A DNA stretch of 64,000 nt, taken from Bolinopsis microptera. Its lineage: Eukaryota; Ctenophora; Tentaculata; Lobata; Bolinopsidae. A model generated the notes under the pieces. That model saw only the letters and a program-made list of their open reading frames with translations. It had not been told where the DNA came from and searched no databases. Numbering within the stretch: position 1 is the first letter of the stretch; the number at the start of each line of letters is the position of its first letter. Positions 1,762 to 63,076 of the stretch are shown here, piece after piece. Position numbers and translations under genes: made by a program. The stretch lies in contig NC_087078.1 in assembly GCF_026151205.1 (NCBI RefSeq), forward strand, positions 16,075,118 through 16,139,117, in the 5' to 3' direction.

Positions 1762-2745
1762 TTACCATGTATTAGGGTCATCTCGATTTTGGAGGGATAG
1801 CAAGTGCTTTTTAAGGTTAGATTCAATAATACCTGACGAGGCTGACAAGTCTGAATTCTTGGAAGAACCCGGGATTATTATCCCATCTTCATTAGCATCA
1901 CAAATTTCGAATACATAGGGGCTGAGGTCATTCCAAATTTTCGTAGAGGTGTAAAAAAAAATCTGTTGGGAGATATCTAACCTCAGTAATGGGACAATCA
2001 GACGAAGTTTTTCATTTCTAGGACAGAACTTGAAAAGATCTTTAATTGACTGGGGGACATCAAATTTAAGAATTTTGAATAGTTCCATAAATGTATGGTA
2101 CATGTGCAGATTCTCCAGGTTCATAATTTTCTGCTCAGTGAATAGCGGTTTAGTGTGTTCAAGACAGTAGTTCTTGCTAGCCATATGTTCGTTATAAGTT
2201 CTTGAACGTGCACAGGTTAAATAGTATTCTTTATGATCAAAATTGGGAATGTTACCAAATAGCAGTCTTATACATCGTTTTTGAATTGCAAAGATTTTAT
2301 TCAGCTTATGTTTAGGGATCCCACCCCAGCAACTTATACAATAGCTAAGATGTGACATAAAAAGAGCATTGTATAGTTTCAAATATTCAGATTTGGGAAT
2401 GAATTTGCAAATTCTCTTAATCGATACAATACTGGAGTTCAGCTTTAAAGATAAATGATTAAGATGTGGTTCCCAGCTTAGCTGTTCGTCTATTATCACC
2501 CCAAGAAACTTTGTACATTGAACTTTTTCTAGCTTTTTGCCATCTATTAAAATCGTTAGATTCCTGTTAAAGGGCCGTGTTCTGGCACAGGTCTGTGTTG
2601 CTCTTGACAAACCTGGCTGAAAATGCATATAACAATTTTTCCCTGCATTTATATGTAACTTGTTAGACTCCATATAGTTACTGACCTGTTTCATTACATT
2701 GAATTGTGCCAAGTTCTGCATATTATTATAACAAACCTTCTGCAA
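1762..2745 (-). pseudogene. C-terminal fragment of a LINE reverse transcriptase (CR1/L2-like)
   Basis: A 327-codon open frame matches the end of non-LTR reverse transcriptases. It has the post-catalytic KFLGVIIDEQLSW segment, then SHLSYCISCWGG and the IQKRCIRLLFG thumb/C-terminal motif, followed by the conserved 'CARSR...HTKPLF' region. The intact LINE at 59723-63076 carries the same ordered motifs (KFLGVIIDDQLNW, SVWGG, TQKKCIRILFG, CARTRP), so both come from the same or sister families, though they are well diverged. The endonuclease, the fingers and the FADD catalytic box are absent, so this is a 3' fragment. It sits at the centre of the palindrome between the two inner hairpins and was probably inserted into or captured by it. 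Its unbroken frame is notable for a fragment. Confidence 0.85.
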
Positions 2746-6184: not shown

Positions 6185-9100
6185 GGTATGCGAAAGCTAT
6201 GTAGTTGATCAGACTTAAAGTTACGTGTTCTTAAGAGGGTGAGAGGTTCTTTAGTAAGGCCGACTGATTAAATGAGGCTCTGAAATGAACAGGAATCTAG
6301 CAATAATAGCATGGAGAGTGGGGAAAATCAAAACGCGGAATAATAATCTAACTCTAAGTTAACGATAAACTGGTACAGAAATCAAAAGTCCGAACACGGA
6401 GTCTAGGAGTAGGAAATAGCTGTGAACCAAACAAACAGAATGGCACCCGTGCATGATATATTAAAATATGTACCGTTCTAGGATGCCTCCGCAAACTTTT
6501 GCTCCTCTGTAAATGCACGTGTTAGTGCTGTAGCGAAAGCTATGTAGTCGATCAGACTTCAAGTTACGTGTTCTTATTAGGGTGAGAGGTTCTTTAGTAA
6601 GGCCGACTGATTAAATGAGGCTCTGAAATGAACAGGAATCTAGCAATAATAGCATGGAGAGTGGGGAAAATCAAAAAGCGGAATAAATAATCTAACTCTA
6701 AGTTAACGATAAACTGGTACAGAAATCAAAAGTCCGAACACGGAGTCTAGGAGTAGGAAATAGCTGTGAACCAAACAAACAGAATGGCACCCGTGCATGA
6801 TATGTTAAAATATGTACCGTTCTAGGATGCCTCCGCAAACTTTTGCTCCTCTGTAAATGCACGTGTTAGTGCTGTAGCGAAAGCTATGTAGTCGATCAGA
6901 CTTCAAGTTACGTGTTCTTATTAGAGTGAGAGGTTCTTTAGTAAGGCCGACTGATTAAATGAGGCTCTAAAATGAACGGGAATCTAGCAATAATAGCATG
7001 GAGAGTGGGGAAAATCAAAAAGCGGAATAAATAATCTAACTCTAACTTAATGATAAACTGGTACAGAAATCAAAAGTCCGAACACGGAGTCTAGGAGTAG
7101 GAAATAGCTGTGAACCTAACAAACAGAATGGCACCCGTGCATGATATATTAAAATATGTACCGTTCTAGGATGCCTCCGCAAACTTTTGCTCCTCTGTAA
7201 ATGCACGTGTTAGTGCTGTAGCGAAAGCTATGTAGTCGATCAGACTTAAAGTTACGTGTTCTTATTAGGGTGAGAGGTTCTTTAGTAAGGCCGACTGATT
7301 AAATGAGGCTCTGAAATGAACAGGAATCTAGCAATAATAGCATGGAGAGTGGGGAAAATCAAAACGCGGAATAATAATCTAACTCTAAGTTAACGATAAA
7401 CTGGTACAGAAATCAAAAGTCCGAACACGGAGTCTAGGAGTAGGAAATAGCTGTGAACCAAACAAACAGAATGGCACCCGTGCATGATATATTAAAATAT
7501 GTACCGTTCTAGGATGCCTCCGCAAACTTTTGCTCCTCTGTAAATGCACGTGTTAGTGCTGTAGCGAAAGCTATGTAGTCGATCAGACTTAAAGTTACGT
7601 GTTCTTATTAGGGTGAGAGGTTCTTTAGTAAGGCCGACTGATTAAATGAGGCTCTGAAATGAACAGGAATCTAGCAATAATAGCATGGAGAGTGGGGAAA
7701 ATCAAAACGCGGAATAATAATCTAACTCTAAGTTAACGATAAACTGGTACAGAAATCAAGTCTAGGAGTACGAAATAGCTGTGAACCAAACAAACAGAAT
7801 GGCACCCGTGCATGATATGTTAAAATATGTACCGTTCTAGGATGCCTCCGCAAACTTTTGCTCCTCTGTAAATGCACGTGTTAGTGCTGTAGCGAAAGCT
7901 ATGTAGTCGATCAGACTTCAAGTTACGTGTTCTTATTAGGGTGAGAGGTTCTTTAGTAAGGCCGACTGATTAAATGAGGCTCTGAAATGAACAGGAATCT
8001 AGCAATAATAGCATGGAGAGTGGGGAAAATCAAAAAGCGGAATAAATAATCTAACTCTAAGTTAACGATAAACTGGTACAGAAATCAAAAGTCCGAACAC
8101 GGAGTCTAGGAGTAGGAAATAGCTGTGAACCAAACAAACAGAATGGCACCCGTGCATGATATGTTAAAATATGTACCGTTCTAGGATGCCTCCGCAAACT
8201 TTTGCTCCTCTGTAAATGCACGTGTTAGTGCTGTAGCGAAAGCTATGTAGTCGATCAGACTTCAAGTTACGTGTTCTTATTAGGGTGAGAGGTTCTTTAG
8301 TAAGGCCGACTGATTAAATGAGGCTCTGAAATGAACAGGAATCTAGCAATAATAGCATGGAGAGTGGGGAAAATCAAAACGCGGAATAATAATCTAACTC
8401 TAAGTTAACGATAAACTGGTACAGAAATCAAAAGTCCGAACACGGAGTCTAGGAGTAGGAAATAGCTGTGAACCAAACAAACAGAATGGCACCCGTGCAT
8501 GATATGTTAAAATATGTACCGTTCTAGGATGCCTCCGCAAACTTTTGCTCCTCTGTAAATGCACGTGTTAGTGCTGTAGCGAAAGCTATGTAGTCGATCA
8601 GACTTCAAGTTACGTGTTCTTATTAGAGTGAGAGGTTCTTTAGTAAGGCCGACTGATTAAATGAGGCTCTAAAATGAACGGGAATCTAGCAATAATAGCA
8701 TGGAGAGTGGGGAAAATCAAAAAGCGGAATAAATAATCTAACTCTAACTTAATGATAAACTGGTACAGAAATCAAAAGTCCGAACACGGAGTCTAGGAGT
8801 ACGAAATAGCTGTGAACCTAACAAACAGAATGGCACCCGTGCATGATATATTAAAATATGTACCGTTCTAGGATGCCTCCGCAAACTTTTGCTCCTCTGT
8901 AAATGCACGTGTTAGTGCTGTAGCGAAAGCTATGTAGTTGATCAGACTTAAAGTTACGTGTTCTTAAGAGGGTGAGAGGTTCTTTAGTAAGGCCGACTGA
9001 TTAAATGAGGCTCTAAAATGAACGGGAATCTAGCATGGAGAGTGGGGAAAATCAAAACGCGGAATAAATAATCTAACTCTAAGTTAACGATAAACTGGTA

Positions 9101-9420
9101 CAGAAATCAAAAGTCCGAACACGGAGTCTAGGAGTAGGAAATAGCTGTGAACCAAACAAACAGAATGGCACCTGTGCATGATATGTTAAAATATGTACCG
9201 TTCTAGGATGCCTCCGCAAACTTTTGCTCCTCTGTAAATGCACGTGTTAGTGCTGTAGCGAAAGCTATGTAGTCGATCAGACTTCAAGTTACGTGTTCTT
9301 ATTAGGGTGAGAGGTTCTTTAGTAAGGCCGACTGATTAAATGAGGCTCTAAAATGAACGGGAATCTAGCATGAAGACTGGGGAAAATCAAAAAGCGGAAT
9401 AAATAATCTAACTCTAAGTT
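6185..9420. repeat. Tandem satellite, ~343-bp unit, about 9.5 copies
   Basis: The phrase gaaagctatgtagtcgatca starts at about 6190, 6535, 6877, 7224, 7565, 7894, 8243, 8583, 8927 and 9265, giving a period near 343 (one copy has a short deletion near 7760). Copies differ at a few diagnostic sites (cttaaag/cttcaag, acgcgg/aagcgg, gatatatt/gatatgtt). Copies 3 and 8 share a rare set of variants (attagagtg, aatgaacggg, aacttaatg). The array begins inside the RT relic, so the unit may derive from a LINE 3' region. No coding potential is seen. Confidence 0.95.
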
Positions 9421-27462: not shown

Positions 27463-30400
27463 TAAGGCATGAGTACCGAATACCCAATAATATTCACTAT
27501 AGTATGGTTCATAACTTTCACTATCCATCAATACACTGCTGCATGGAAGCAAGGCCAATGACTGGATGAATCTATAGATTTGGGGACGCGACGTACGTTG
27601 CAGATTTTAGTTCTGATCTAGAATGCGCGCGCGTATTATCGTGACGTGCGCGGTAAAGCATCTAACATTTTGGCAAATGTCTGCTGGTAGTTGAGGCGCG
27701 CGCAATCCGCACAATATGATTGGTGAAAATAAGAGGCACGTAACACATGGATAGATTAAACGGTCGGTAAATTAATTGGCCAAATGCCAATGGTGAATGG
27801 TTAATTTAGCCCACGAAAAGAAGTAAAAGTTAACTGTACACACCTTTTCTTGGACAATGTCGAACGAATCATCCTCGCTCCTGAACTTATTGTTGCTGAG
27901 TAGCTCAGATATTTCGGCATCGCTGTGAAATTTAGGGTAAGCATTTAGTGACACAACAAAATTGTCTGCTTGGTGAATAATAAAGTGTCCATTCTAACAG
28001 TTTTATTTTCTAATGTTCATGGGATAAACAAGTAAATGCAAGGAGCCAACTCTCCAAGCCATACACACTCCACTAGCTCACTAGATAATTTCAAAAACCC
28101 ACCTTCTGAAAGAGTTATATTTCTCAGACTTCAAACCGCCCGTATCTTGGTGATCAGCCATTTTAGGGGAACTATTCTTGTTACGTTTGGGAGAATGTCG
28201 GGGAGAACTGGCGTCTAGATGTCTCTGTACCACTCTAGTTAGGGTGGTTTTACCATCGTTACGGGGTAGTACCTTCCGCTTCCTATCTACCTGTTAGATA
28301 ACACAAGCTGAGAGATAACACAAGCTGAGAGATAACTCAAGCTGAGAGATAACACAAGCTGAGAGATAACACAAGCTAAGAGATAACACAAGCTGAGAGA
28401 TAACACAAGCTGAGAGATAACACAAGCTGAGAGATAACACAAGCTGAGAGATAACACAAGCTGAGAGATAACACAAGCTGAGAGATAACTTAAGCTGAGA
28501 GATAACAAAAGCTGAGAGATAACACAAGCTGAGAGATAACTCAAGCTGAGAGATAACACAAGCTGAGAGATAACACAAGCTGAGAGATAACACAAGCTGA
28601 GAGATAACACAAGCTGAGAAATAACACAAGCTGAGAGATAACTCAAGCTGAGAGATAACACAAGCTGAGAGATAACACAAGCTGAGAGATAACACAAGCT
28701 GAGAGATAACACAAGCTGAGAGATAACACAAGCTGAGAGATAACACAAGCTGAGAGATAACTCAAGCTGAGAGATAACACAAGCTGAGAGATAACACAAG
28801 CTGAGAGATAACTCAAGCTGAGAGATAACACAAGCTGAGAGATAACACAAGCTGAGAAATAACACATCTTGATAAATATATTTTTAAGTAACATTACTAA
28901 CTTAACAGACGTAAGATACACTATAAATAGCACATCTTCACAAAAGTGCACATCTATTATTTCTATAACTATTAGTCTACTTTGATCACGTTTTCAATTT
29001 ATCACGTTTTCAATTTATCACGCATTCCGATTATCACGTACTCTAGACAAGCAAGCACAAAATAACAGAATTATCAACAACTGCTCCTTGAAGACAAACC
29101 TTCATGTCTACCGGAGGAGATACAGGTCTGACACTACATTTCCCTTTGGTGTTGAGGATAATAGTGGTAGTTTGCTTCCTGTAGGAGAGACACACTTTAC
29201 ACCACAGTGAGAGGTAATGTGGGTGCTAAAAAACCAACCAACTACAGTACAGATTGTAACATCATTGGTAGGGTCTAATGGCTTAAAGCGGTTTATTACA
29301 GATTGTAGCAAGTAAAGAAGTCCAAGTTTAAGTCATATATTATTATCTGCTAGAACTCTGAAATTTTCTCTCTAAGGATCGTAACGTACGGTTTAGGAGG
29401 AGGAGTATCAGTAGTAGAATCAGGCGAGACACAGCGCACTGTTTGCACCGTGCGCGTAACGTTTCCAGACACATTGCGAGTAATGCCAGAGACGTTACGC
29501 GAGATCGCGCGGGGATCCTCCGGTAAAAGTCGTGTTATGGTGCACGGCTCTTCTGGTAACCGTCGCGTCATCACTGGTTCATTTGAAGACTGGGAATAAA
29601 AAGCGAATTAGAAAATGGAAGACCATATAACAACATTTTATTTAGCAGGAGAAGTCTATGTGATTAGTTCATTAATTGACTAATTAATCGACGGTCTATC
29701 ATTAGCTACCTGTATAGAGGAGTAGGAGTCCGCAGGAGGTCTCCTAACGAAAACAGGAGACCTATCACCCTCTGACTCGGATGAGTCACGTGGTATTCGC
29801 CCACGTGACGGCAGCTCTGCCACGTCGCGTGACACCACCTCCGTGTTGCGCGCAGCACCACCAAACACACGACGTGATACGGGGGAGTGCTGTCCACTTG
29901 ATGAGTCAGAGTCCTGGAGATGGAAAGATTTTAGTTTGTTGAAGTGTTCAGGTGACTGGAATTACAATAAATCTTAAGATATTATGAACAAGTTGTTATT
30001 TTGTGATTGACCGACTGTACAGTCTGTTATTCCATCGTTTGGTAACGTTTTTACTTGGTTACAATACCTCAGATTCCAGTTCCTCGTGATGTCGCTTTAC
30101 AAGGTGAGCTTTCTGAACCACCGGTCTCACCCTTTGTTCTCTATCCTCCATAATAGTCACGTGTTTCACAGTAGCTGGAGTCACGTGATGTTTCACTGAT
30201 GTAGTCACGTGTTTCACAGTCTGGGCCAAGTGCACGTGTTTTACGATGGGTGTCACGCGTTGTTTTACATGCGTGCTTGCTTTTCTGACTTGAGTTTTAT
30301 CAACTTTTGGAGGGGTACTGGAGACGGTTCTCCTGGATTTGTGTTCTGGTTTGGTTGGAACTGATACAGTTCGCGTTGACTGTACTTCTTTCTTTACTTT

Positions 30401-36386: not shown

Positions 36387-37259
36387 CTACACTAAATCAG
36401 GTTTGAAAAACTCCTGATAAATCGTCCTCCCTGCCCGTCTCAAGAACAGTGCTGATATTATTCCAACTAAAAAGTACATGATAAAGAGGGTCCATATTCC
36501 GCCGGTGGGAGGGGGTCGTTCTGTTAAACTAGCATTCTGAGGAGCTGTTTCAGGGGTTGCTACAGGAGCATCAGGAGCAGGAGCAACAGGAGCAGGTGAC
36601 ACGGCTGCGTTAGAGTTTGGTTCAGTAGTAGGAGGAGGAGCGGTGACTGAGGCCGCAGATTCCACCGGAGGATCTCCCGGTTTAGATTTACTCTTCTCAG
36701 CAGTAAACGCCATTTCAGAAGCCGCTTTATCAGCCTCCTTCTTCAAAGACTCGCCACTTTGTTTAGTAACCGGTAACAACACATCTGCGTTATCAGCTCC
36801 ACACCCTCTACACGACCACTTTACTGATTGCAATGCTAGCTTCTTCCTCTCAGCATCAGTCCAGTCCAGCGCTCCTATAGCTCCCTTCCCAGGGGTGGGC
36901 ATGAAACCGACTATAGCCAACAATACAGTCCTGATACTCCAACTAGGTTGCCAGGTCTCCGGATGGTACTCTGACATACTCAAACATATCTTCCTGTTGA
37001 TCTCGAACCTTCCATTAGGAGTGAGCAGCATGACACTGGGCGGTTTCAGGGGGTACTCCGGTGGGAACATAATCCTCCCGTGGTACAAACCCCCCTCAAA
37101 CGAGCTCCCTTCTTGTCCTCTGACGGTGAAGTGCCATTCGAACAGGTTGTCCTCGAGAGGTGCTGCGTAGTAATGCTCGGTTGGTTCAGCCAGCTCTGCT
37201 GCTTCACGCATCAGCCTCTTAACACCGGGACAGTTCTTATTAACCTTCTCCTTGCTCAT
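36387..37259 (-). CDS. UBE2J1: UBE2J-type ubiquitin-conjugating enzyme E2 (ER tail-anchored)
   Basis: Tail-anchored E2 enzymes of this family pass ubiquitin to ER-associated degradation ligases at the ER membrane. I place the start at MSKEKVNKNCPGVKRLMREA, 30 codons inside the longest frame, because this matches the family N terminus. The UBC fold covers residues ~10-165: NLFEWHFTVRG, FPPEYPLKPPS, the active-site Cys at ~92 in INRKICLS, then ETWQPSWSIRT and the GAIGALD loop. All are typical of UBE2J1/J2. A Pro/Ala-rich linker precedes one C-terminal membrane segment (IWTLFIMYFLVGIISALFL). The length of 290 aa is close to the human protein (318). There are no introns. J1 fits better than J2, but the assignment is family-level. 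Confidence 0.9.
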   Translation of the reverse strand: MSKEKVNKNCPGVKRLMREAAELAEPTEHYYAAPLEDNLFEWHFTVRGQEGSSFEGGLYHGRIMFPPEYPLKPPSVMLLTPNGRFEINRKICLSMSEYHPETWQPSWSIRTVLLAIVGFMPTPGKGAIGALDWTDAERKKLALQSVKWSCRGCGADNADVLLPVTKQSGESLKKEADKAASEMAFTAEKSKSKPGDPPVESAASVTAPPPTTEPNSNAAVSPAPVAPAPDAPVATPETAPQNASLTERPPPTGGIWTLFIMYFLVGIISALFLRRAGRTIYQEFFKPDLV

Positions 37260-37649
37260 AGTGTAACAGTAGTCCACTGTGTCGTGTGAGCTGTAGCACG
37301 CTGGTTGGACTAATATGTCATTCCTAGGAGATATTAGTGTTATTGTCATACGATTTATCAGGAGTTCAGAATTTGAAATTAAATGTAGAGTACCTTAAAC
37401 GTGCAATGAATGAAGACGGTAATATTAAATAACATGGATACGATGCCAAACATGTAACAGTGCGATAAGTACCATCTATCGACTATATATTATCATATTG
37501 AACACAGTTACAGTTGTTACATTGAAACCATAATAGATCTACCTCCTGGACACTCATTTTTACAATCAAAACTTTGAGACTCTAGAATAAAACAACGACT
37601 ATTTCTTTCAAATATTATAAAAATCAGCTAAAAATCATCATCCAACTGC

Positions 37650-39280: not shown

Positions 39281-42200
39281 TCATTTTCTGATCATCATAA
39301 CGAACTCTTGGAAGTCGATATCCCCGTCTCCGTCAACATCAACCTCTCTAACCATATCATCTATCTGCTCCTCATCCGTTTGTACTCCTAATACTGTTGT
39401 TATGTGCTTTAACTCCTTTGCATCTGGGGAAAAGGAGGTTAGACGGGAAGAGTGGGTCAAGTGTTATTATAAATTAAATTGGATGAGGTCAAGTTTAAAA
39501 AACTTTGAAGCAAATCTCAAGTATATTCAAAATACGTTCAGACAAATAATGACACGTAAATATTCTTAGAATTTAAAAAAATGTAACATAACAATTTCAC
39601 AAATATCCTTACAACAGCATAAGTCCAGGGTTGCCGGCATTTTTGAGAGTCATTTTTAAGGTTTTTTCACGTCTTTTAAGGCCCCTTTTGACCCATTTTT
39701 AAGGTCCAAAACAGTTAAATTCAAGGTTTTTTAAGGTCCACAGGGCGAAAATTTGGACAAACGTAATGCAATAAAGGTGCAAATTTAAGGTTTTTCAAGG
39801 TTTTCCGATACAGAAATTGCAATCATATCTAAAGGGGGAAAGTATAATTTCAGAAAACCCCAATTAGATCTACAACAAGCTAGGTATAATTCCAGAAAAA
39901 CCCAATTAGATCTACAACAAGCTAGGTATAATTTCAGAAAAACCCAATTAGATCTACAACAAGCTAGGTATAATTTCAGAAAAACCCAATTAGATCTACA
40001 CCGAGCTAGGTATAATTTCAGAAAAACCCAATTAGATCTACACCGAGCTAGGTATATTTTCAGGAACCCAATTAGACCTACAACAAGCTAGGTATAATTT
40101 CAGAAAACCCCAATTAGATCTACAACAAGCTAGGTATAATTTCAGAAAAACCCAATTAGATCTACAACAAGCTAGGTATAATTTCAGAAAAACCCAATTA
40201 GATCTACAACAAGCTAGGTATAATTTCAGAAAAACCCAATTAGATCTACAACAAGCTAGGTATAATTTCAGAAAAACCCAATTAGATATACAACAAGCTA
40301 GGTATAATTTCAGAAAAACCCAATTAGATCTACACCGAGCTAAGCATAATTTCAGAAAAACCCAATTAGATCTACACCGAGCTAGGTATATTTTCAGGAA
40401 CCCAATTAGATCTACAACAAGCTAGGTATAATTTCAGAAAACCCCAATTAGATCTACAACAAGCTAGGTATAATTTCAGAAAAACCCAATTAGATCTACA
40501 ACAAGCTAGGTATAATTTCAGAAAAACCCAATTAGATCTACAACAAGCTAGGTATAATTTCAGAAAAACCCAATTAGATCTACACCGAGCTAGGTATATT
40601 TTCAGAAAACCCCAATTAGATCTACAACAAGCTAGGTATAATTTCAGAAAACCCCAATTAGATCTACAACAAGCTAGGTATAATTTCAGAAAAACCCAAT
40701 TAGATCTACAACAAGCTAGGTATAATTTCAGAAAAACCCAATTAGATCTACAACAAGCTAGGTATAATTTCAGAAAAACCCAATTAGATCTACAACAAGC
40801 TAGGTATAATTTCAGAAAAACCCAATTAGATCTACACCGAGCTAGGTATAATTTCAGAACATCCAATCAGATCTACACCGAGCTAGTTATAATTTCAGAA
40901 AATCTTATCAGGTCTACACAGAGCTAGGTATAATTTCAGAATATCCAATCAGATCTACACCGAACTAAGTATAAATTCAGAAAATCCAATCAGATCTACA
41001 TCAAGGTAGGTATAATTTCAAAAATTTTTACTAATCCGGAAAATCCATTTAGATCTAACATCAAGCTAGGTATAATTTAGGTATGGAACCTTAAAAAACC
41101 TTAAAAACCCGAAAATTTGCCCGTTTTTCACGTCTTTTTTAAGGTTTTTTGCCCAAAATTGCCGTTTTTAAGGTTTTTAAGGTTTTTTAAGGTTTTTAAG
41201 GTCCCCCGGCAACCCTGAGCATAACATAATACATAAAAACATAATAAAATGCAAATAAGGTCTGAACTCTAGCTCTCTACTGCAATGTAAAAAACATTTA
41301 TTCAAAAAGCTGATGGTTTCAACGCAACATAGGTTATAAAAATCTCTTTGAAACCCCTCACTTGACGACGGTACATTCCATGATCGTTTGAAACTCCCTC
41401 ACCATAACCTCACTAACTCCCTCCACCCCCACCTCCCTCCCCTTCTCACGTGACAAACTCGTGACCCCTCTCCCCTCAATACCACACGGCACTATACTCT
41501 CGAACCAGTCCAGGTCCGTGCTACAGTTCAGTGCTAACCCGTGTGTGGTACAGCGGGTCCGGATATTGACACCAAGCGCACACACCTTGTTGGCTCCCAC
41601 CCAGATCCCCACGTGCTCACACCGCGCAGCGCTCACCCCCATTTCACCACACGTGGAGATAACGAGTTCTTCCAGCTGGTTAATGTACCATTTAGCACTT
41701 GATTTAAAGTTCCTCAGGTTCAATATAGGGTAGCACACCAACTGTCCGGGCCCGTGGAATGTAGTGAGTCCACCGCGCGGCGTGGTATGACATTCTGCAC
41801 CAAGTCCCTGGAGTCTTCCTATCTCAATTGAGAGATCACCTTGTGATTGTCTCTTCCCAAACGTGTAAACTGGACTGTGCTCACATAGGATAAGATAGTT
41901 GAGACGGTGATCTTTGGACAGAGTCCACAGTCTATGTTGAAGTTTGAGACCCTCACTGTAGCGGAGTAGTCCAGGGATCTTAACTAACTTTACTAACTTG
42001 TTCGTTGCCATGTACCTTGTGAGCTAGCAAACACCATGTCATAAGTTTATATCGAGATCTTAGAATATAATACAAAATATAATCAATACAATATTGGATA
42101 ATCAATGTGATGTTCTATTCATTCATCATTGCCTTTCCAGACACTAAATCTATTTCCAATACGTACCAATAGTTCCTCGGCCCTCCTTATCGAACATCCT

Positions 42201-45414: not shown

Positions 45415-46517
45415 CTAAATAGCGCCAGGTTGAATGGTAGCACTATCAGTGCCGCCCACCTCCAAGTTAACATCCTGCATGTCAGCAGCGGGTCCAGGTC
45501 CGGCGCTGTCTGTCCGGATCTGCAGCACTCCTCCAACCAACTTCTCCGGCTCCGCATGCCATTCTGTATCCTTGAAACAATACCAACAGTTGACTCCGTA
45601 AAGGAAGATACAGAGATACCCGAACACCACGCTGCCGTATAGCTTACTCCAGGAGTCGGTAGTGAGACAACTGAAGTTTTCGCAGACTTTATCATCGCCT
45701 ACCTCTATTCTTATGCGCGCTATCAACGAGACGTAATCAGAGGGCGGGTTGAGGTCGTTGCGCAGCGCGCTGAACCCAGCGCTCCACAGCGTCGTGGAGA
45801 GAAACCAAAAGAAGGTCAGCACGACTGTCGAGATCAAATCCACCTTGGTGAAATAGATTGCAAAGTGGTCGCTCATCTTCTCAAACTTCTTGTAGAAAGC
45901 ATAACTGATGATAGCTGCAAGGGTATAAAGGAAGGACATCACACCCACGAACACATAAAATTGAGATTCAGATTGGAACCCATCTTTGAACATCATGTCC
46001 TTGTAAGCGTGATCTTTGCTTTCGTTTTCGTTATCGTAGTTGTGGTTCCAGTCGTATTTCGAGAAGGGGTATTTGGTAACGAGGACTCCTTCTACATCGT
46101 TTTTTAGCTTGCCTGCTGCTTTTATCAAGAGAGTCGACTCACCTGGACAGTGGTCGTGTTATCTAACTTATTTTAGCGTTATTATTATCATTAAACATAT
46201 TGAAAGTAGCATCAGCAATCTGCATAATATGTTACATATCCTCCTTCAGCCCATTCAGAGGGGTAGCGAAATTGATAATTTGAATACTAGTTCACGTGTC
46301 GCATAGAATAATATAAATATTATGAGAATATGCAAAAGAAAATGCTAGAAAAGATGTGAATTGTGAACCCACCTTTTGCACTGGTTGTCATAGCAAACGC
46401 GCATATCACCACAAACAACTGAACGAACTTCATCATTCCTTTGGGAGTAAGAAAGACATCTTTGTGGAGCTCCGCCAATATCTCGTTCTTTGTTGCGTTT
46501 AGCCGGTCCACGTCCAT
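45415..46517 (-). CDS. Synaptophysin-family (physin) four-span vesicle membrane protein
   Basis: Two exons (46517-46373 and 46142-45415) join in phase to 290 aa. The start is MDVDRLNATKNEILAELHKD. Four membrane spans are visible: MMKFVQLFVVICAFAMTTSA, FVGVMSFLYTLAAIISYAFY, LISTVVLTFFWFLSTTLWSA and VVFGYLCIFLYGVNCWYCF. The vestibule sequence VEGVLVTKYPFSKYDW resembles the EFEYPF segment of synaptophysins, and SVVFGYL...N.WY.FK(D/E)T.W before the cytosolic tail is the family's strongest motif. Paired Cys residues lie in the second lumenal loop (VCENFSCL). The tail is short, without the Tyr/Gly repeats of synaptophysin, closer to synaptogyrin/pantophysin-like forms. It probably acts in secretory or synaptic vesicles. 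Confidence 0.88.
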
Positions 46518-54300: not shown

Positions 54301-57300
54301 TTAATAATATAACTGAGCAATAGCTTGGGCCAAATAGTTCAAAGTTCCATATTGTCCAGTGGGTGGGGTCAAATAAAATTCTTGACTTATTCCACATAAA
54401 AGCGAACTTGAGTTGTGGTTGACACAGTCATATACAAATGTACCATGAGCCTTATACAAAATAGCATGAAGTTCTATAACATCAGGGAATTTCTTTATCA
54501 TCTTCTGCAGTGAGCCTAAAATCATGATTGTTTCAACATACAACTGACGGAGCTGAGGTTGTGGGATTTTGTCGAGCCAAGTGGATATGTTGATAGCAAA
54601 TTGGGGTTCACCGGCAGTCATTTCGTCTGTCAAGGGAAAAGATCTTAGGATGTTGCCCCCAAGATCTATTCCAGATGTTGCATTCATAAGAGCGTACAAA
54701 CTATGATGAAAGTTTTTAGGAAGCCTGTTTAAGGACCCATCTATATATCGTATTCTTTCCCAGGTAAGCTCTTTCTCATCGTCACCTGCCGATATACCTC
54801 CACTGAGCAGGCTAAAAATTAGCTGATATAATCGAATGGGTTTTAGCTCACACATTTTGTCAAACACTTTCTCGTCCCCAGATGTTTCTTTAGCAATGAG
54901 TTTCACAAGTAAATCTATTCTTATTCTCAATATGCCTTTGAATAGAGCTGGATTTTTCTGGGCAAGTTGAGACAAATAATTGAGCAATTCTTGGTAGATG
55001 GAAAATAAGACATTACACTTTTTACTGTGTCGTACAATGACATCAAGAAACTCAGCAAGTGGAAGAGGTTGTGATATTGTTTCCTCATCTGTACCTTCCC
55101 CAAATGAAATTTGCCTTTGAGTGACCAAGATATGAAGAACACTTTCATTAATGGATGGATGTACTTTGTGTAAGAAGGCAGAACAGTGTCGTAATACATA
55201 CCAGCATGTCTCTTCAGATGCAAGTTTGTAAAGTTTTTGTACCTCTGGAATCAAACCAACAGGTAAATGTCCCATTTCTTTGTAAATCTTGTTAAGACAG
55301 TTCCACTTCTCTGATACTGTTGATCCTGTCAGTTGCATTAATTTCTCGGCACCAGAATAGATCTCACAATCTTCAGTAGTTTCTTGAGAGCTTGTTTTGG
55401 TAGAAAAAGACAAATTTGTTGCCTCAGAGGTCCCTAAGATGAAAATTCCATTATCTTTTTGTACTAGAGCTGGGACAGTAGGCAGCAGCTGTTTGAAAGA
55501 TGTTGCCAAAGCAGTCTGAGTGTGACATAGTTTAACTTGCACACCTTGGAAAGAGCCAGATTTCAATGTATCAAGGAAGCGAGAAGTTGATTTGTCAGCA
55601 CATTTTTCAGGAGTTAAGAAAATTATCAATATTGGCCTGCCTGGAAAGCACCATTGAGATGATAGGTATGAAAGTCTGGCAATGGTTTTCTGGATGAATA
55701 TTTCATTGTCTAAGTTGTTGTAAAATGAAGCACCAAGAGAGTATTCTGGAAGAGATAAAAAGAACTGATCTTTAAACTGATAAACAACGCTTGTACGTAG
55801 TGAACTCACTCTCTGTAAATTAGTCATATCAGTTTTGACATTTGATTTCATGCCTAGATCAATCCACATTTGAACCACAACTTGTGGGGTGACCATTTTT
55901 ACACCACAGTCATGTACTGGAGAACAAGGAATGTCATGCTCATCTGCAAAGGATTGACACTTCTCATTTGCGGATAATAATACTATCTGCACAATCGAGG
56001 AGTTTCTTTTGGACATGCTCAGTCTACGGTTTAGTGGATCAATGTTGCTAGGACTGATAAATTCATTTTGCAAGAGCCCTGCAACAATGAACAAAGATTG
56101 GGCCCATAAAAAGGGGATTTTCCCACCACAAAGCCGAACCTGAGAGCCATTTGAAGATTTTTCTTCTTCAACCTTCTCACTTGGGACAAAGTAAAATTCG
56201 GGGACCAATGGATATCCATCCTCATCAGGCACCTGAAGTTTCTCAATATGTAGTTTTATATTGTTTGCTGATTCCATGTTTTTTGAGAACAGTTCATCAA
56301 TCCACTCATAGATGAAATATATCGGCCACTCACACTCAATACCCTCAAAGTTTCTCAGTTCTCCAAGGTTATAATGAAGCCTATTCTTGTCCTCCACAGC
56401 TGTCTTGTAGCCATCAAGCAAAAATCGTTTGTATCCATAATGGCCTTCAAGGCTTCTTTTTAATGAATCTTTAGTTTGAGCAAGAAGCATATCTTTTTCA
56501 ACGGCAAAGGCTGGATATGATATGATGCTCCACAGCGAGCTCTCTATCTCTTTACTTTTACTACTACGAGGAAGGATTGCCTCAAGCACTCTATTACACT
56601 GTCTTGACATGTCAGGAGGCACGTAAATTACTGATCGAGCTCCACCCTGTGCACCAAACAAGTTAAGACCCCTGATAGCGCAAAGAGCTGCTTTCGTCAT
56701 ACCAACAGAACAAGCACTAAGTTCCCTGATACCACGGTTATTCTTGTCACCACGCTCATACACACCATAATCAGGGGTCTGATAGGCAAAATGTATGTAC
56801 AATACCAGGCTTTGAATAAAGTCAACCTCTGAAAGAGATTGCACAATAACGAAACCTGATGAGGTAATTTGAGCCAAAGTCAACACATATAAAGATGTTG
56901 CATCAAGCTGCAAGTGTCCCCATTCATCGTCACCAACAACGGGTTGCCCTGTGCTAGTATCATATTTGGCATGCAAACAATCCAAATATGATTGAGAGGC
57001 ATTGAATTTCATGACCTTATCTTTTTGATTCATCAATGATTGTAACAAACCTCGCATGCCTTTTATGGTTCGAAATTTCAATTCATGGTAGAAACTACGA
57101 TTAGTCGCAGAGAGCTGCTTTTCAAAAGCTAATGACAATGCCCACAAGGAATGAAGTGCGTAAGTGCAATCGCGAACCCATGTGTCTGCACCCGGATGAG
57201 CAGGAATAAGACCAGTAACAGGATGTTGCAGCTCAATAATACTTTTCTTGGCAAGAGAATACCAGTAAAATAGGTCTTCTTGAACTCCACATTTCTCAGT

Positions 57301-57360
57301 TGAGACCAATCTTTCTCTGCACGGTAACATATACTGCAATTGTACCCGTTTTACATTCAA
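54301..57360 (-). CDS. PHKA-like: Phosphorylase b kinase regulatory subunit, alpha-like, intron-free
   Basis: The single frame of 1019 codons covers nearly the whole alpha/beta family. The GH15-like N-terminal domain shows HPVTGLIPAHPGADTWVRD, WGHLQLDATSLYVLTLAQIT, ERGDKNNRGIRELSACSVGM, ISYPAFAVEKDML and FEGIECEWPIYFIYEWIDEL. The C-terminal part shows DGSLNRLPKNFHHSLYALM, IPQPQLRQLYVETIMILGSL and PPTGQYGTLNYLAQA. Wording such as SVIYV..D...C, LPRSSKSKEIESSLWSIISY and 'VVGDDEWGHLQLDATSLY' is nearer to alpha than beta. Vertebrate alpha is ~1235 aa and ends in a farnesylated CaaX box; this one stops at AQLYY with no CaaX and lacks the long variable insert. These subunits tether calmodulin and restrain the catalytic gamma subunit. 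The missing introns suggest a retrogene, but the intact frame suggests function. Confidence 0.88.
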   Translation of the reverse strand: MNVKRVQLQYMLPCRERLVSTEKCGVQEDLFYWYSLAKKSIIELQHPVTGLIPAHPGADTWVRDCTYALHSLWALSLAFEKQLSATNRSFYHELKFRTIKGMRGLLQSLMNQKDKVMKFNASQSYLDCLHAKYDTSTGQPVVGDDEWGHLQLDATSLYVLTLAQITSSGFVIVQSLSEVDFIQSLVLYIHFAYQTPDYGVYERGDKNNRGIRELSACSVGMTKAALCAIRGLNLFGAQGGARSVIYVPPDMSRQCNRVLEAILPRSSKSKEIESSLWSIISYPAFAVEKDMLLAQTKDSLKRSLEGHYGYKRFLLDGYKTAVEDKNRLHYNLGELRNFEGIECEWPIYFIYEWIDELFSKNMESANNIKLHIEKLQVPDEDGYPLVPEFYFVPSEKVEEEKSSNGSQVRLCGGKIPFLWAQSLFIVAGLLQNEFISPSNIDPLNRRLSMSKRNSSIVQIVLLSANEKCQSFADEHDIPCSPVHDCGVKMVTPQVVVQMWIDLGMKSNVKTDMTNLQRVSSLRTSVVYQFKDQFFLSLPEYSLGASFYNNLDNEIFIQKTIARLSYLSSQWCFPGRPILIIFLTPEKCADKSTSRFLDTLKSGSFQGVQVKLCHTQTALATSFKQLLPTVPALVQKDNGIFILGTSEATNLSFSTKTSSQETTEDCEIYSGAEKLMQLTGSTVSEKWNCLNKIYKEMGHLPVGLIPEVQKLYKLASEETCWYVLRHCSAFLHKVHPSINESVLHILVTQRQISFGEGTDEETISQPLPLAEFLDVIVRHSKKCNVLFSIYQELLNYLSQLAQKNPALFKGILRIRIDLLVKLIAKETSGDEKVFDKMCELKPIRLYQLIFSLLSGGISAGDDEKELTWERIRYIDGSLNRLPKNFHHSLYALMNATSGIDLGGNILRSFPLTDEMTAGEPQFAINISTWLDKIPQPQLRQLYVETIMILGSLQKMIKKFPDVIELHAILYKAHGTFVYDCVNHNSSSLLCGISQEFYLTPPTGQYGTLNYLAQAIAQLYY

Positions 57361-57581: not shown

Positions 57582-59726
57582 TTGAAAATGGCGTCAAATT
57601 CTAGGAAGACTTCAGGTACTCCTAAAACATCTAATAGCTTGTCTCGCAACATTTTAGCCGAATCTACAGTGGACAATGAAGATCAGGTAAACAGGAAACA
57701 TAGGGACAAGAAGAAATGTCCATGTCAACGCTCTTTTAACGGTAAAGTTTACCTCATTGACTGTTCTAAGTGTCATCAAGAGTGGCATGTGGACTGCCTG
57801 TCTATGAAAGGTATAACGAGGTCAGCTATCAACTCCATGGTAGAATGGCTGTGCCCATACTGCTTCGTGGCACCAGTATCAACACTGAAGAAACAGAGAG
57901 ACGAATTTTGTTACAGCTGCAGGAACACAAGGGCTTTGCAACAGGCCAACTCAGATTTTGAAGCATCTACAGCTGTTAAGAATCTTGAAACTGTCAGTGC
58001 ACTTGTGGCATCAGCAAGCTCAGCAGGCTCAGCTCTTGAAAAATTTGACTTCGAACAGTTCTCTAGGAACCTTGACACTCTCTCCCAGTTCGACGTTCAC
58101 CTTCAACACCTGCTTCTTAAAGAGAACTCCCTTAATGGCCTAAATAATGAAATAAAGCTCCATGACAAATCATTAGAATCAATAAATACCAACATTGCTG
58201 AACTACAGAGGGACCTTAAACTTTTAGCATCTAGACCTTCCCCTGAATCATCCCCATCTACAGACTCATCTGAGCAGTTTCTGAAGAGCATCTCAGAACA
58301 ACTCACCGCACTTTCTGCAAATGAGCCCACTGTAGCTGCAGGCATTGCTGAACTAAAACAGTCTATAAGTTCTATACAGCCATTGCATAACCCTGGTCCT
58401 TGCATTCCTCCCAACCTACCTCCTGCACAGCATCCTCGTCCTCCAGCACCACCTGTCCTTTTGCAGCCACCTCATCATGAGCAGAAACCTGTGGAACTGT
58501 TCAAAAACGATTTTATAGATCAGAAGACTGCGGAAGAACTAGTTGACCTATTTGATTTGAGCAGCACAGACTTCAAAATTGAAAACGAACGCTCCTGCCT
58601 ATCATATGGGGAACGGTACGATTATCCTGGATCTAAGTCGTCCAAGACACCAAAGGCAATACCACCACCCTTGAGAAAACTCATCGACAGAATCAACAGT
58701 GAGTTTTGTTCAGGTGACCAACCTCAGGTTAACAGCTGTTTGGTGAATCGGTTTGACGGCACAAGCAGCACCTTGCCTAGACACTCTGATAACGAGCCTT
58801 CTATCCACCCGGAATCAAGTATCTTTACAGTCTCTCTTGGTACTGCATGTCATGTTTCTTTCTCTGATGCTAGTACAGGTATTGATGAGCACAAGCAACT
58901 ATGTGGCCCAGGATCATTATATGTAATGACTCGTCGTAGCCAAGCACTGTTCCACCATCGTATCGATGCAGGCGAGATAACTGGGCTGCGCTACAGTATA
59001 ACATTGAGATCAGTCAGTTCCCTGAATAGAAACGCTACATGTATCATTGGGGACTCGAACACCGGCGGACTGAAATTCGGTTCTGATCCTGCCAAGTCAT
59101 TCGGCAAATGGCTTCCTGGAAAACGATTCTTTGCCCCAACTGTCGATAGCATTGATCCTTATGTGTCCTGTGGCTATAGAAACTGTGTTATATTGTGTGG
59201 GGTTAATGACCTGAAACAAACAGATGTAAAAAGCCAAAACGATATTGATATAATCTACAACCATCTAGTTTCAAAAATTGCCCAGATTCAATCTATTAAT
59301 CCGGGTGTGCATGTATATGTTTGTCCAACAATTCCTTCTAAACGTGCTGATTTAAATAGAAAGCTTATATACTTTAACAGTTTGATTCGATGTAGGCTGC
59401 TCCCGTCCAATTTTGGTGTCAGTTATGTGGATGGATTTGATGAGTTCTGTGATAGGGATGGTCTCCTTGACCGCTCTCTCTCTCGCGACCTCAACAAATA
59501 CCAAAAACCGGACTTCCTTCACCTCAACTGGAGGGGACTAGCAAAGTTAGGTCAATTTATTCGTAACACTGTTCTTCTCAGGATTAACGGTGGTATCGAC
59601 AAAAGGAAGAGGAGGTCCACAAGGGTAGACGATAGATCCTACAGGGATGCGACTGCTGGAAGAGAAACTGGTCCTGTTGTTCCTGCTGCTGCTAGTCAGG
59701 GTCACGTGGATGGTTACCAACCATGA
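57582..59726 (+). CDS. LINE ORF1: PHD finger + AlkB-like dioxygenase + SGNH esterase
   Basis: 714 aa. A PHD finger at residues 46-94 has C46, C48, C61, C64, H69, C72, C91, C94 (C4HC3). A helical linker follows, then a Pro-rich stretch (~270-305). Residues ~305-480 look like an AlkB/2OG-Fe(II) oxygenase: LFKNDFIDQKTAEELVDLF, the NRFDG...LPRHSDNEPSI segment with metal ligands H401 and D403, GPGSLYVMTRRSQALFHHRI with the distal His at 458/459, and GLRYSITLRS with R470 and R476 for 2OG. This pattern is closest to the plant/viral-type AlkB group. Residues ~484-670 form an SGNH hydrolase: IIGDSNTGG (Ser492), CGVND (Asn542), and DFLHLNW (Asp644, His647). The tail is basic. Two in-frame Met codons begin the frame (57582 and 57588); the second has the better context. 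The role is probably RNA binding and protection or membrane-lipid chemistry of the RNP, but this is inference. Confidence 0.85.
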   Translation: MKMASNSRKTSGTPKTSNSLSRNILAESTVDNEDQVNRKHRDKKKCPCQRSFNGKVYLIDCSKCHQEWHVDCLSMKGITRSAINSMVEWLCPYCFVAPVSTLKKQRDEFCYSCRNTRALQQANSDFEASTAVKNLETVSALVASASSAGSALEKFDFEQFSRNLDTLSQFDVHLQHLLLKENSLNGLNNEIKLHDKSLESINTNIAELQRDLKLLASRPSPESSPSTDSSEQFLKSISEQLTALSANEPTVAAGIAELKQSISSIQPLHNPGPCIPPNLPPAQHPRPPAPPVLLQPPHHEQKPVELFKNDFIDQKTAEELVDLFDLSSTDFKIENERSCLSYGERYDYPGSKSSKTPKAIPPPLRKLIDRINSEFCSGDQPQVNSCLVNRFDGTSSTLPRHSDNEPSIHPESSIFTVSLGTACHVSFSDASTGIDEHKQLCGPGSLYVMTRRSQALFHHRIDAGEITGLRYSITLRSVSSLNRNATCIIGDSNTGGLKFGSDPAKSFGKWLPGKRFFAPTVDSIDPYVSCGYRNCVILCGVNDLKQTDVKSQNDIDIIYNHLVSKIAQIQSINPGVHVYVCPTIPSKRADLNRKLIYFNSLIRCRLLPSNFGVSYVDGFDEFCDRDGLLDRSLSRDLNKYQKPDFLHLNWRGLAKLGQFIRNTVLLRINGGIDKRKRRSTRVDDRSYRDATAGRETGPVVPAAASQGHVDGYQP

Positions 59727-62700
59727 CTCCCCTCATTAAGGAGGTATGTCCTGTCTGTTCTAAGAACATAGTCATCGGCCAAACAATAGTTGAATGTTTT
59801 CACTGTGACTGCATAATGCACCATAAATGCTATCGCAAATCAAATCCAAATAGCCAATCTAATGAGTTTTACTGTACTCGTTGTATCCATTTAGACAAGG
59901 TTAAATACAACCCATTTAAACTACTCACTGACAATGACGACGACGACAACAACCTAGACGAATACACAACCAAAATCTCAAATACTTTAAATGATTGTAA
60001 CTCATACACTGCATCTGACCTTACAAATATTCTCTGCAACCAAGTAAAGAAACAATCATCTATTCTCTTTCAAAATATTGATGGAAATAAATCAAATTTT
60101 GACAACCTTGCCATTGAAACCTGTAGGTACAAAACAAAATTCTCCGTAATAGCCCTAGCTGAAACCAACACTGGAAAAGAATTAAGCAATCTATTTCAGC
60201 TCGACGGTTATAATAGTTACTATCAGGACACAGCACCTAACAAACAAAAGGGCACTGGAGTAGCCCTTTATGTTGACGATAAATTAAATGCTACTGTAAT
60301 TGAGAATATATCACAAGTCACAGAACATCTAGAAATACTTGTCTTATCATTAAGTAACGAAGATCAACCTGTTAATGTAGGTGTTTTGTATCGTCCACCA
60401 AGTGGCTGTATTTCTCAAGCTCTAGTTGAACTTTCTAACCTTCTTGATCACATGCCGAAGTTTAGTTATCTAGCTGGAGACTTTAATATCGATCTTCATG
60501 ATAAAGATAACAAAAATGTTCAAAAATATGAAGAAATATTATTCAGTAAAGGATTTTGTCCGTTAATATCAATTGTTACCCACGAAAAACCAGGCTGTAA
60601 AGCATCCTGCATAGATAACATTATTACTAACGATATTGAGAATGTGATTACTTCAGGCACCCTAAAAGAACGAATAACTCATCACTCACCTATTTTTAAC
60701 ACATTTAACTGGAATGTTGAAGTCAACTCTGAAAAAACTTCTTTTAAACAATATTACGACTTCTGTCAATCAAATGTTAACGGCTTCCTAGTGGATCTTG
60801 AAGATGAGCTTAAAACTAAAACAATCCATAACTTTACTGAATTCCATGACACTTACAAAAACTGCGTCGAAAAATCGTTTAAATTAGAGACCCCGAAAAC
60901 CTCTAAGAGAACTATTCAGGTTAACCCTTGGATAACTCCCGGTCTCATTTGCTCAATTAATAATCAGCATAAACTGTACGAAAATTGGGTTGAGATAAGA
61001 AATAGAAAATGTAAACTCGGGGAAACTGATAACAAGGGCGGCATTTGCCAGTGCCCTGAATGCTCACTAAAACGTAGTCGCTACCTTATCTACAAAGAAT
61101 ACAGAAAAGTCCTAAAGAAAACACGTCAAACTGTGAAAACAGAATACTTCTCTGGTAAATTTGCTGAAAATAGCGGTGATAGTAAAAAGACCTGGGAACT
61201 AATAAATCGTATAAGAGGTAAACGGCGGCGTGAAATAAAGCCGCTGTTCACCATAGACAACGTTAAGATAACAAATAGAAGGATCATAGCAAACGAATTC
61301 AATAAATATTTTGTATCATTAGCCTCTGACCTAAATACCGCTTACAATGATCTTGGACAAATTAACATAAACAGTATACCTAGTTTCTATGATTATCTAC
61401 CGCTTTCAAACACTTCCAGCATTTACATGCATGACTGCACAACAGACGAGGTTAGCAAAATCATATCTGAACTTAAAAATGGCAAGGCAAGTGACATACC
61501 GATTCATGTAATTAAGCAGTCCTCTAAAATAGTTACTCCTTTACTCACTGTACTGTATAACGAATGTATGAAAGATGGCATATTTCCAGATGACCTTAAA
61601 GTTGGAAGGATTAGTCCCATTTACAAGAAAGATAACCAGGAACTCCTTGAAAACTATAGACCTGTATCAACGCTAGCTGTGTTTGGTAAAATATTTGAAA
61701 AGATTATATTCAATAGATTATACAGCTTCTTCCATTCACAGAACTCCTTATATGAAAACCAGTACGGATTCCGTAAAAATCACTCGACCAGTTATGCCCT
61801 AAATTACTCAGTGAACCACGTAGAATCTTGCCTCAAGAAAAAACAACACGTTCTTGGAATATTTATTGATCTTAGTAAAGCCTTTGATACAATATCACAT
61901 GAAAAGTTACTGCATAAGTTAGAAAATTATGGAATCCGTGGAAATGCAAATAACCTTATAGCAAGTTACCTGTCGAACAGATACCAGTATGTCTCGGTAT
62001 TAGGTGAAGAATCCGAGAAACTTCCAGTAGTCTATGGAGTGCCGCAGGGGAGCTGTCTTGGTCCCTTACTTTTTATTATTTATATTAATGACATCCGTAA
62101 CTCATCAATTATAGGAAAGTTTATACTATTTGCCGACGACACTAACATATTTATAGAAGACACATGTGTCAAAAGACTATACGAAAAAGGAAATGAAGTT
62201 CTATCATTTGTGTACAAGTATATGAAACTAAACTTATTACATATTAACATTAAGAAATGTTGTTTTATTCATTTTAAACCCTCACGGGCCAAAGAGGAAG
62301 TAGAAAATGACGAGAACATACTAACTTTAAATAATGTAGTTATTAAAAGAGTTCAAGAAGCTAAATTTCTAGGCGTTATTATTGACGACCAACTTAACTG
62401 GAAATCACATACGCAGTCACTTAACTCAAAACTTAAATGCGAAGTAGGAAAGCTGTGCAGAATACGACACATTGTCCCAAAGCAGTATTATAAGGATTTA
62501 TATCATACTCTATTTGAATCACATTTAGGATTTGGAATATCTGTGTGGGGTGGTATTAGCAATAACCGACTTGAACCTATCTTTAAAACACAGAAAAAGT
62601 GTATAAGAATTCTGTTTGGGGATAGAGAAGCTTACCTAGAGAAGTTTAAAACGTGTGCCCGAACACGACCTGTTGATAAGCAAAGACTGGGGGTGGACTT

Positions 62701-63076
62701 TTACCAAAAAGAACACTCCAAGCCCTTGTTTAAAACCCACAGGTTGTTGACGGTCCACAATCTGTACAAGTACACTTGTCTCTTAGAACTATTCAAAATT
62801 AATAAGTTAGAGGAACCATTATCACTGTACTCATCATTTAACAGGTCACCACGACGAGAGGATTATTTCATTACATCACAACCATCCTCACAATTCATCT
62901 ACCAATCATCCTACATGTGGAACAGCTGTCGACAAACATCAAGTAAGATAAGTTTTAATACTCCGACAAACGGGTTTAAGAATATATTGAAAATTGCCTT
63001 ACGAGAATTGCAATTCAAGCATGATACACTTGATTGGTGTGAGCTTAATTTTGCCACAAATGAGCTCAAGTTCTGA
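59723..63076 (+). CDS. LINE ORF2: PHD finger + APE endonuclease + reverse transcriptase
   Basis: 1117 aa. A second PHD-type finger opens the protein (CPVC...CFHC....HHKC...CTRC, residues ~9-55). The APE endonuclease (~115-335) keeps every hallmark: FQNIDG, ALAETN, GVLYRPPSG, AGDFNID, CIDNII and THHSPIF. The reverse transcriptase (~560-860) has ENYRPVSTLAVFGKIFEKII, NQYGFRKNHST, GIFIDLSKAFDTISHEKLL, VPQGSCLGPLLFIIYINDI and the catalytic FADD. The C-terminal domain holds KFLGVIIDDQLNW, TQKKCIRILFG and CARTRP. It nicks target DNA and copies the element's RNA there. Its ATG overlaps the ORF1 stop (ATGA at 59723-59726). All catalytic residues are intact, so it may be active. Confidence 0.95.
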   Translation: MTPLIKEVCPVCSKNIVIGQTIVECFHCDCIMHHKCYRKSNPNSQSNEFYCTRCIHLDKVKYNPFKLLTDNDDDDNNLDEYTTKISNTLNDCNSYTASDLTNILCNQVKKQSSILFQNIDGNKSNFDNLAIETCRYKTKFSVIALAETNTGKELSNLFQLDGYNSYYQDTAPNKQKGTGVALYVDDKLNATVIENISQVTEHLEILVLSLSNEDQPVNVGVLYRPPSGCISQALVELSNLLDHMPKFSYLAGDFNIDLHDKDNKNVQKYEEILFSKGFCPLISIVTHEKPGCKASCIDNIITNDIENVITSGTLKERITHHSPIFNTFNWNVEVNSEKTSFKQYYDFCQSNVNGFLVDLEDELKTKTIHNFTEFHDTYKNCVEKSFKLETPKTSKRTIQVNPWITPGLICSINNQHKLYENWVEIRNRKCKLGETDNKGGICQCPECSLKRSRYLIYKEYRKVLKKTRQTVKTEYFSGKFAENSGDSKKTWELINRIRGKRRREIKPLFTIDNVKITNRRIIANEFNKYFVSLASDLNTAYNDLGQININSIPSFYDYLPLSNTSSIYMHDCTTDEVSKIISELKNGKASDIPIHVIKQSSKIVTPLLTVLYNECMKDGIFPDDLKVGRISPIYKKDNQELLENYRPVSTLAVFGKIFEKIIFNRLYSFFHSQNSLYENQYGFRKNHSTSYALNYSVNHVESCLKKKQHVLGIFIDLSKAFDTISHEKLLHKLENYGIRGNANNLIASYLSNRYQYVSVLGEESEKLPVVYGVPQGSCLGPLLFIIYINDIRNSSIIGKFILFADDTNIFIEDTCVKRLYEKGNEVLSFVYKYMKLNLLHINIKKCCFIHFKPSRAKEEVENDENILTLNNVVIKRVQEAKFLGVIIDDQLNWKSHTQSLNSKLKCEVGKLCRIRHIVPKQYYKDLYHTLFESHLGFGISVWGGISNNRLEPIFKTQKKCIRILFGDREAYLEKFKTCARTRPVDKQRLGVDFYQKEHSKPLFKTHRLLTVHNLYKYTCLLELFKINKLEEPLSLYSSFNRSPRREDYFITSQPSSQFIYQSSYMWNSCRQTSSKISFNTPTNGFKNILKIALRELQFKHDTLDWCELNFATNELKF

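Follow-up and report, generated by a model that had tools for sequence, protein, structure and literature searches.

The stretch analysed here, a 64,000-nucleotide window of the Bolinopsis microptera genome (NC_087078.1, positions 16,075,118 to 16,139,117), contains on its + strand a long interspersed nuclear element (LINE) with two intact, overlapping open reading frames (ORFs) at 57588-63076, as seen in an ORF scan and in the sequence itself. ORF1 (57588..59726; ORF scan, Pfam and alignment) encodes 712 residues from an ATG and closes with a TGA stop ending at 59726. ORF2 (59723..63076) encodes 1117 residues from an ATG at 59723, and the two frames meet in an ATGA stop-start overlap (59723..59726). 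A prediction made earlier from the sequence alone had located ORF1 and its coordinates correctly and had listed a TTG as its start. That TTG is merely the first ATG/GTG/TTG downstream of a stop and was rejected; the natural start is the ATG at 57588, in the context GAAAATGGCG. Residues are numbered here with this ATG as 1, so that the numbers of the original prediction equal ours plus 2; Pfam match coordinates for ORF1 are given in the TTG numbering.

An endonuclease and a reverse transcriptase (RT) are both matched in ORF2, a feature of APE-type retrotransposons without long terminal repeats (non-LTR). The RT lies at 61625..62383 (RVT_1, E = 2e-36) and the endonuclease region at 60143..60634 (Exo_endo_phos, E = 3.1e-4, 21.0 bits, below the cut-off of 24.5). 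At the start of ORF2 (59747..59884) the sequence holds a PHD/RING-like zinc finger, C9-C54, matched by Prok-RING_1 (E = 5.6e-4) and PHD_2 (E = 0.025), both below cut-off. A protein search returned 1690 relatives of ORF2 at E <= 1e-20, and many of the best 120 carry a precomputed PF03372. Among these listed matches the closest is 96% identical over the compared region and belongs to a cluster that holds 70 sequences at 90% identity, and all four that bear an organism name come from Mnemiopsis. Because both frames are open and a 96% identical relative sits in a cluster of this size, the LINE probably represents a recently active multi-copy family. No second copy was found within the window, and around the element nothing convincing was recognised as a target-site duplication or as its ends, two 10-base matches being all that appeared. 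Elsewhere in the window, a diverged remnant of a second LINE ORF2, which has no Pfam match, occupies 1762-2745 (-); its fragment at 1930-2697 (-) is 38.5% identical over 257 residues to ORF2 residues 826-1067.

The 2-oxoglutarate oxygenase family 2OG-FeII_Oxy_2 (PF13532), which the original prediction expected around residues 300-480 of ORF1, is matched by Pfam at 336-476 with E = 4.8e-16, scoring 60 bits where the cut-off is 31.2. The AlkB-type Fe(II)/2-oxoglutarate dioxygenase domain occupies residues 296-479 (58473..59024) and is linked within the window to the RT-encoding ORF2. It is followed by an SGNH/GDSL esterase domain at residues 484-664 (59037..59579), where Lipase_GDSL_2 is matched below its curated cut-off (523-652, E = 5.4e-6). 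The single esterase sequence found no match among PDB sequences at E <= 10. A ten-row profile (the query and nine of 12 segments, with P0010, P0036 and P0047 left out) ranked the ZfL2-1 LINE ORF1 esterase 4c1b in fifth place, at E = 0.0012, behind other SGNH-type or related proteins, of which 8gr2 was best (4.2e-7). The AlkB domain is preceded by long helices at residues 109-261 (57912..58370), possibly a coiled coil, which the structure model places with low to moderate confidence at 109-151, 155-177, 179-215, 227-244 and 246-261. Nearest the N-terminus is a PHD-type zinc finger of C4HC3 pattern, C44-C92 (57717..57863), matched by PF00628 at 46-94 with E = 8.8e-4, below the curated cut-off. 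No RRM is found among the Pfam matches of ORF1. With the finger at 59723-59884, at the N-terminus of ORF2, the element seems to own two zinc fingers.

The AlkB active site is conserved throughout the family. We aligned 47 rows, comprising the query and 46 homologues, and count for each position the rows in which it is present. The iron ligands H399 and D401 of the HSD motif (58782..58790), given as H401 and D403 in the original prediction, occur in 47/47 rows each, as does E403, and the H, D and E of HxDxE are all invariant. N387 (58746..58748), which belongs to the motif that stabilises 2-oxoglutarate, is likewise present in 47/47; the N-x-F-x-G segment proposed before HxD is better given as N-x-[YF], which holds in every row. 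Of the two adjacent histidines proposed next, the second (H457; 58956..58958) is the third iron ligand and is conserved in 45/45 rows, and the first (H456) is variable. The 2-oxoglutarate-binding arginines of R468-x5-R474 (58989..59009) are kept in 45/45 and 44/45 rows, respectively. The four proposed esterase residues fare equally well: S490 in 45/45, N540 in 44/44, D642 in 42/43 and H645 in 43/43. Mean commonest-residue frequency is 0.546 in the AlkB domain, 0.546 in the esterase and 0.545 in the PHD finger, against 0.421 in the linker. A loose AlkB ligand pattern, composed after the motif had been seen, has a single match when the window is translated in all six frames, at this ORF. The near-invariance of the active site spans proteins with as little as 23% identity to the query, and its retention led us to reject a degenerate domain.

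This conservation bears on whether the domain was recruited chiefly as a structural module, supplying the nucleic-acid binding that esterase-type ORF1 proteins lack, with catalysis secondary. Esterase-containing ORF1 proteins are described as having no defined RNA-binding domain (PMC3905857), and the AlkB of an orchid retrotransposon binds RNA even with its demethylase activity abolished (PMC9289625). The domain could indeed also provide RNA binding to this ORF1 protein (ORF1p). Mere binding, however, would not need the iron ligands, N-x-[YF] and R-x5-R, which are near-invariant across the family, and we consider it very unlikely that binding is the domain's chief role.

Predicted structure and fold comparison are consistent with an AlkB-type fold. 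The model superposes on ALKBH2/3 at 2.1 Å over 171-173 residues, which implies, as far as the model goes, that the iron ligands come together. Similarity to AlkB, without which the original prediction would have fallen, is thus found in the PF13532 profile as well as in structure. In the fold comparison ALKBH2/3 are closest, with ALKBH6 within 2 Z units. As a single sequence, the ORF1 domain matches PDB sequences weakly (ALKBH2, E = 0.041). A family profile built from 18 of 31 diverse rows chosen matches ALKBH2 at 2.6e-16, ALKBH3 at 2.5e-13 and ALKBH8 at 6.3e-13, followed by a DNA N6-methyladenine (6mA) demethylase (5.6e-8), AlkB (3e-5) and ALKBH6 (1.2e-3); neither ALKBH5 nor FTO appears in the set of 38 PDB sequences matched at E <= 1. 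The NCBIfam AlkB equivalog scores 19.9 bits, far under its cut-off of 231; in NCBIfam the query and P0034 match AlkB weakly (5.8e-4 and 9e-4), and P0015 and P0047 not at all. These comparisons of sequence and model favour a domain nearer ALKBH2/3, which act on 1-methyladenosine (m1A) and 3-methylcytidine (m3C), than ALKBH5, which acts on N6-methyladenosine (m6A). A demethylase of the Watson-Crick face is the class that fits best, the substrate itself not being readable from sequence alone. ABH2 and ABH3 are described as acting on m1A and m3C, with human ABH3 preferring single-stranded DNA and mRNA (PMC11431407); the domain described here differs from ALKBH2 and ALKBH3 in sharing only about 20-24% identity with them and in being built into a retrotransposon ORF1 protein.

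The same comparisons weigh on a reading directed at m6A, a mark that the original prediction named among the possible targets. Under it the enzyme would clear m6A, or other regulatory marks, from the element's RNA and so keep host readers from destabilising or silencing that RNA; a role of this kind has been put forward for Gypsy elements of orchids and for certain plant viruses. In the orchid case the domain is ALKBH5-like, whereas sequence and structure here tend to place ALKBH2/3 above ALKBH5. Moreover, in human cells m6A promotes L1 retrotransposition and ALKBH5 suppresses it (PMC7873242). Because ALKBH5 inhibits human L1 and the domain appears to lie nearer ALKBH2/3, escape through m6A is possible but weaker, and we regard it as unlikely.

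The domain is not peculiar to this locus. Candidates were retrieved via shared 5-residue words, and the AlkB-domain search recovered 46 homologues at E <= 1e-3 among 470 of them, 45 with a precomputed PF13532. Three carry an organism name, two being from Mnemiopsis leidyi and one from B. microptera; Mnemiopsis and Bolinopsis are ctenophore genera. The domain order expected of other ORF1-like proteins is present among these homologues. AlkB and esterase each span at least 150 residues in 43 of the 47 rows, and P0004, P0012, P0030 and P0035 are short or cut within or before the esterase. With Pfam, fold and domain order all as predicted, the AlkB interpretation stands. The PHD finger is less constant: all eight zinc ligands are found in only 29 of the 47 rows. 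Truncation affects part of the remainder, but P0024, P0025, P0040 and P0046, at 616-665 residues, lack them too. The relatives, known as proteins alone, probably also belong to LINEs, to judge from their shared PHD/esterase architecture. Two scans of viral_contigs for loci encoding them gave 135 and 20 pattern matches, none of which was confirmed. That some ORF1 and ORF2 matches have the same 'longest contig' length was considered as evidence that the two are linked and was set aside, since such agreement can easily arise by coincidence.

Could the fusion be an artefact, in which a fragment of a host AlkB gene was joined to a LINE by chance or the domain is degenerate? The divergent homologue P0047 lacks R474, and the relatives come without genomic context. 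Against this stand the 46 homologues, the 43 rows with both domains, the intact frame and the conserved active site, and we give this explanation next to no weight. Read-through from a host gene was rejected, given the recurrence of the domain in 46 homologues.

The inconstancy of the PHD finger also touches on an action directed at DNA, either the repair of m1A and m3C in single-stranded cDNA or target-site intermediates, or the removal of 6mA at those places in host chromatin to which the PHD finger steers insertion. Here the nearest solved relatives include ALKBH2, a double-stranded DNA repair enzyme, the family profile matches a DNA 6mA demethylase, and PHD fingers are known as chromatin readers (PMC4120745). 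Yet ORF1p is by analogy an RNA-packaging protein, and the PHD finger varies while AlkB and esterase are kept, which leaves a DNA substrate quite unlikely.

AlkB and esterase have been inherited together in this ORF1 family. Across the 43 of 47 rows in which each of the two domains has at least 150 residues (a set without P0004 and P0030), the tree distances of the two domains correlate with r = 0.745, and none of 9999 permutations reached that value, the maximum being 0.246. We also built a quick tree of 45 of the 47 family AlkBs (P0004 and P0030 were dropped as truncated) with 55 proteins of 165-250 residues out of the 68 stand-alone matches P0086-P0153, a set that leans to HSDNE-type AlkBs through the 5-residue-word retrieval and whose seven members with an organism name are all bacterial. 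The 45 family AlkBs fall on one side of a branch with an SH-aLRT value of 87, not starred; the tree carried warnings that long branches meet within the stand-alone set, some members of which are nearest the family. Because of this branch and the correlation of AlkB and esterase distances, a single old capture of AlkB is the simplest reading. One origin is supported and not proven, since the support is unstarred, the tree quick and the nearest stand-alone rows on long branches.

Two side observations concern the history of ORF1. The first is that its N-terminal part (57588-58049) is a mosaic. Between P0002 and P0003 identity is 94% for residues 300-664 and 34% for residues 40-150, the change coming abruptly near residue 155, and the N-terminus of the query pairs with P0003 at 93%; so large an identity gap was seen in only 2 of 90 pairs compared, P0002-P0003 and P0002-query. 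PHD and N-terminal modules thus seem to be exchanged between elements, the AlkB-esterase half moving as a unit in the P0002/P0003/query group. The second is that, in a viral structure library, three Picornavirales sp. models match the AlkB part at 1.6-2.0 Å over about 150 columns with 21-29% identity, the best identity among the 50 rows listed being 29% over 149 columns. Picornavirales-type proteins are, on these models, a possible donor or a parallel capture, and a viral origin is a lead only.

We favour the explanation that the AlkB domain removes methyl groups from the element's own RNA. We put at about one in two the probability that this is the ORF1 of an intact, probably recently active LINE in which an ALKBH2/3-like AlkB, captured long ago, cleans the element's RNA in cis of methyls that block the RT. 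More tentatively, the family may be a deep LINE lineage with a built-in template-repair enzyme, whose ORF1p demethylates packaged RNA so that target-primed reverse transcription reaches the 5' end. ORF1p would package or coat the element RNA, its helices multimerising and its PHD finger and esterase acting as tethers. The AlkB domain would act on that RNA, and perhaps on the cDNA, oxidatively stripping base methyls that block Watson-Crick pairing; m1A, m3C and others like them would be targets, and they could stem from enzymatic marking or from alkylation damage. On a template cleaned in this way the ORF2 protein could copy several kilobases with no stalling and no errors from modified bases. 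In support of such a need, the R2 RT used in ordered two-template relay (OTTR) is impeded by m1A, and AlkB included in OTTR removes m1A and m3C and raises the capture of most 3' tRNA halves, while the capture of intact tRNA changes modestly (PMC12140624); R2 elements are themselves non-LTR retrotransposons (PMC5035012).

The closest known ORF1 proteins are those of CR1/L2-lineage LINEs, type IV with an esterase and type III with a PHD finger, for which Kapitonov and Jurka (2003) are reportedly the source. ORF1 proteins of this lineage are described as shuffling PHD, RRM, CCHC, coiled coil and esterase domains, and Table 1 of Metcalfe and Casane has no AlkB and no PHD-plus-esterase combination, with esterase ORF1 in only two vertebrate groups of the Repbase sample (PMC4120745). 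With type IV/III proteins the present ORF1 shares an SGNH esterase on the C-terminal side, long helices ahead of that esterase, a PHD finger and the absence of an RRM match, and with L2 subgroup 5 the element shares a further zinc finger at the N-terminus of ORF2 (PMC4120745, PMC3905857). It differs in having an AlkB dioxygenase between helices and esterase. The orchid paALKBH5-like protein is also an AlkB-family dioxygenase encoded by a retrotransposon, but there it is a separate additional ORF of a Ty3/Gypsy LTR element, ALKBH5-like and described as recently acquired in Phalaenopsis (PMC9289625), whereas here the element is a LINE and the domain is fused into ORF1, nearer ALKBH2/3 and diverse. 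RNA viruses likewise carry AlkB in a selfish RNA-copying element, with RNA repair proposed as its role. Their domains lie within polyproteins, and for the AlkBs of plant viruses Bratlie and Drablos argue for recent, repeated integrations without co-evolution (PMC544882), in contrast to the one branch and co-inheritance seen here. A further parallel is the viral-type RNA helicase that insect Jockey/TRAS LINEs carry in one or other ORF, ORF1 or ORF2 (PMC5563155), again a captured RNA-acting enzyme kept in a LINE, though a helicase and not a demethylase. No LINE with an AlkB domain was found among the open-licence PubMed Central matches listed, a search that Repbase and subscription papers lay outside, and the orchid Ty3/Gypsy element was the AlkB-bearing retrotransposon in that literature. 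Priority for a LINE-borne AlkB is not proven.

RNA base methylation is a possible barrier for every retroelement, and if the template-cleaning explanation is true, nucleic-acid repair would be an intrinsic step of the LINE life cycle. That a LINE family has retained an ALKBH2/3-like enzyme while diverging deeply suggests that retrotransposition in these hosts is limited by methylated nucleic acid, and an iron-ligand histidine would offer a single-residue switch for testing that limit. The finding also extends the range of enzymes in LINE ORF1 proteins, whose main task is presumed to be RNA packaging, and may yield a natural demethylase partner where modified RNA is to be reverse transcribed.

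Scanning the window for Rfam families and for tRNAs returned nothing. Head-to-head with the LINE, at 54301-57360 (-), lies an intronless, uninterrupted frame of 1019 residues that resembles the phosphorylase kinase beta subunit (Glyco_hydro_15, KPBB_C) and is either a retrocopy or an intron-poor host gene. Genes in the window may be intron-poor more widely; further host-like genes in single frames encode a ubiquitin-conjugating enzyme at 36387-37349 (-), a lipoyl ligase at 41358-42011 (-) and a MARVEL-domain protein at 45415-46128 (-). The window also contains a satellite at 6190-9420, with 9.5 copies of a 344-bp unit at 96% matches, and shorter tandem arrays of 42 bp at 39842-41024 and of 17 bp at 28296-28866.
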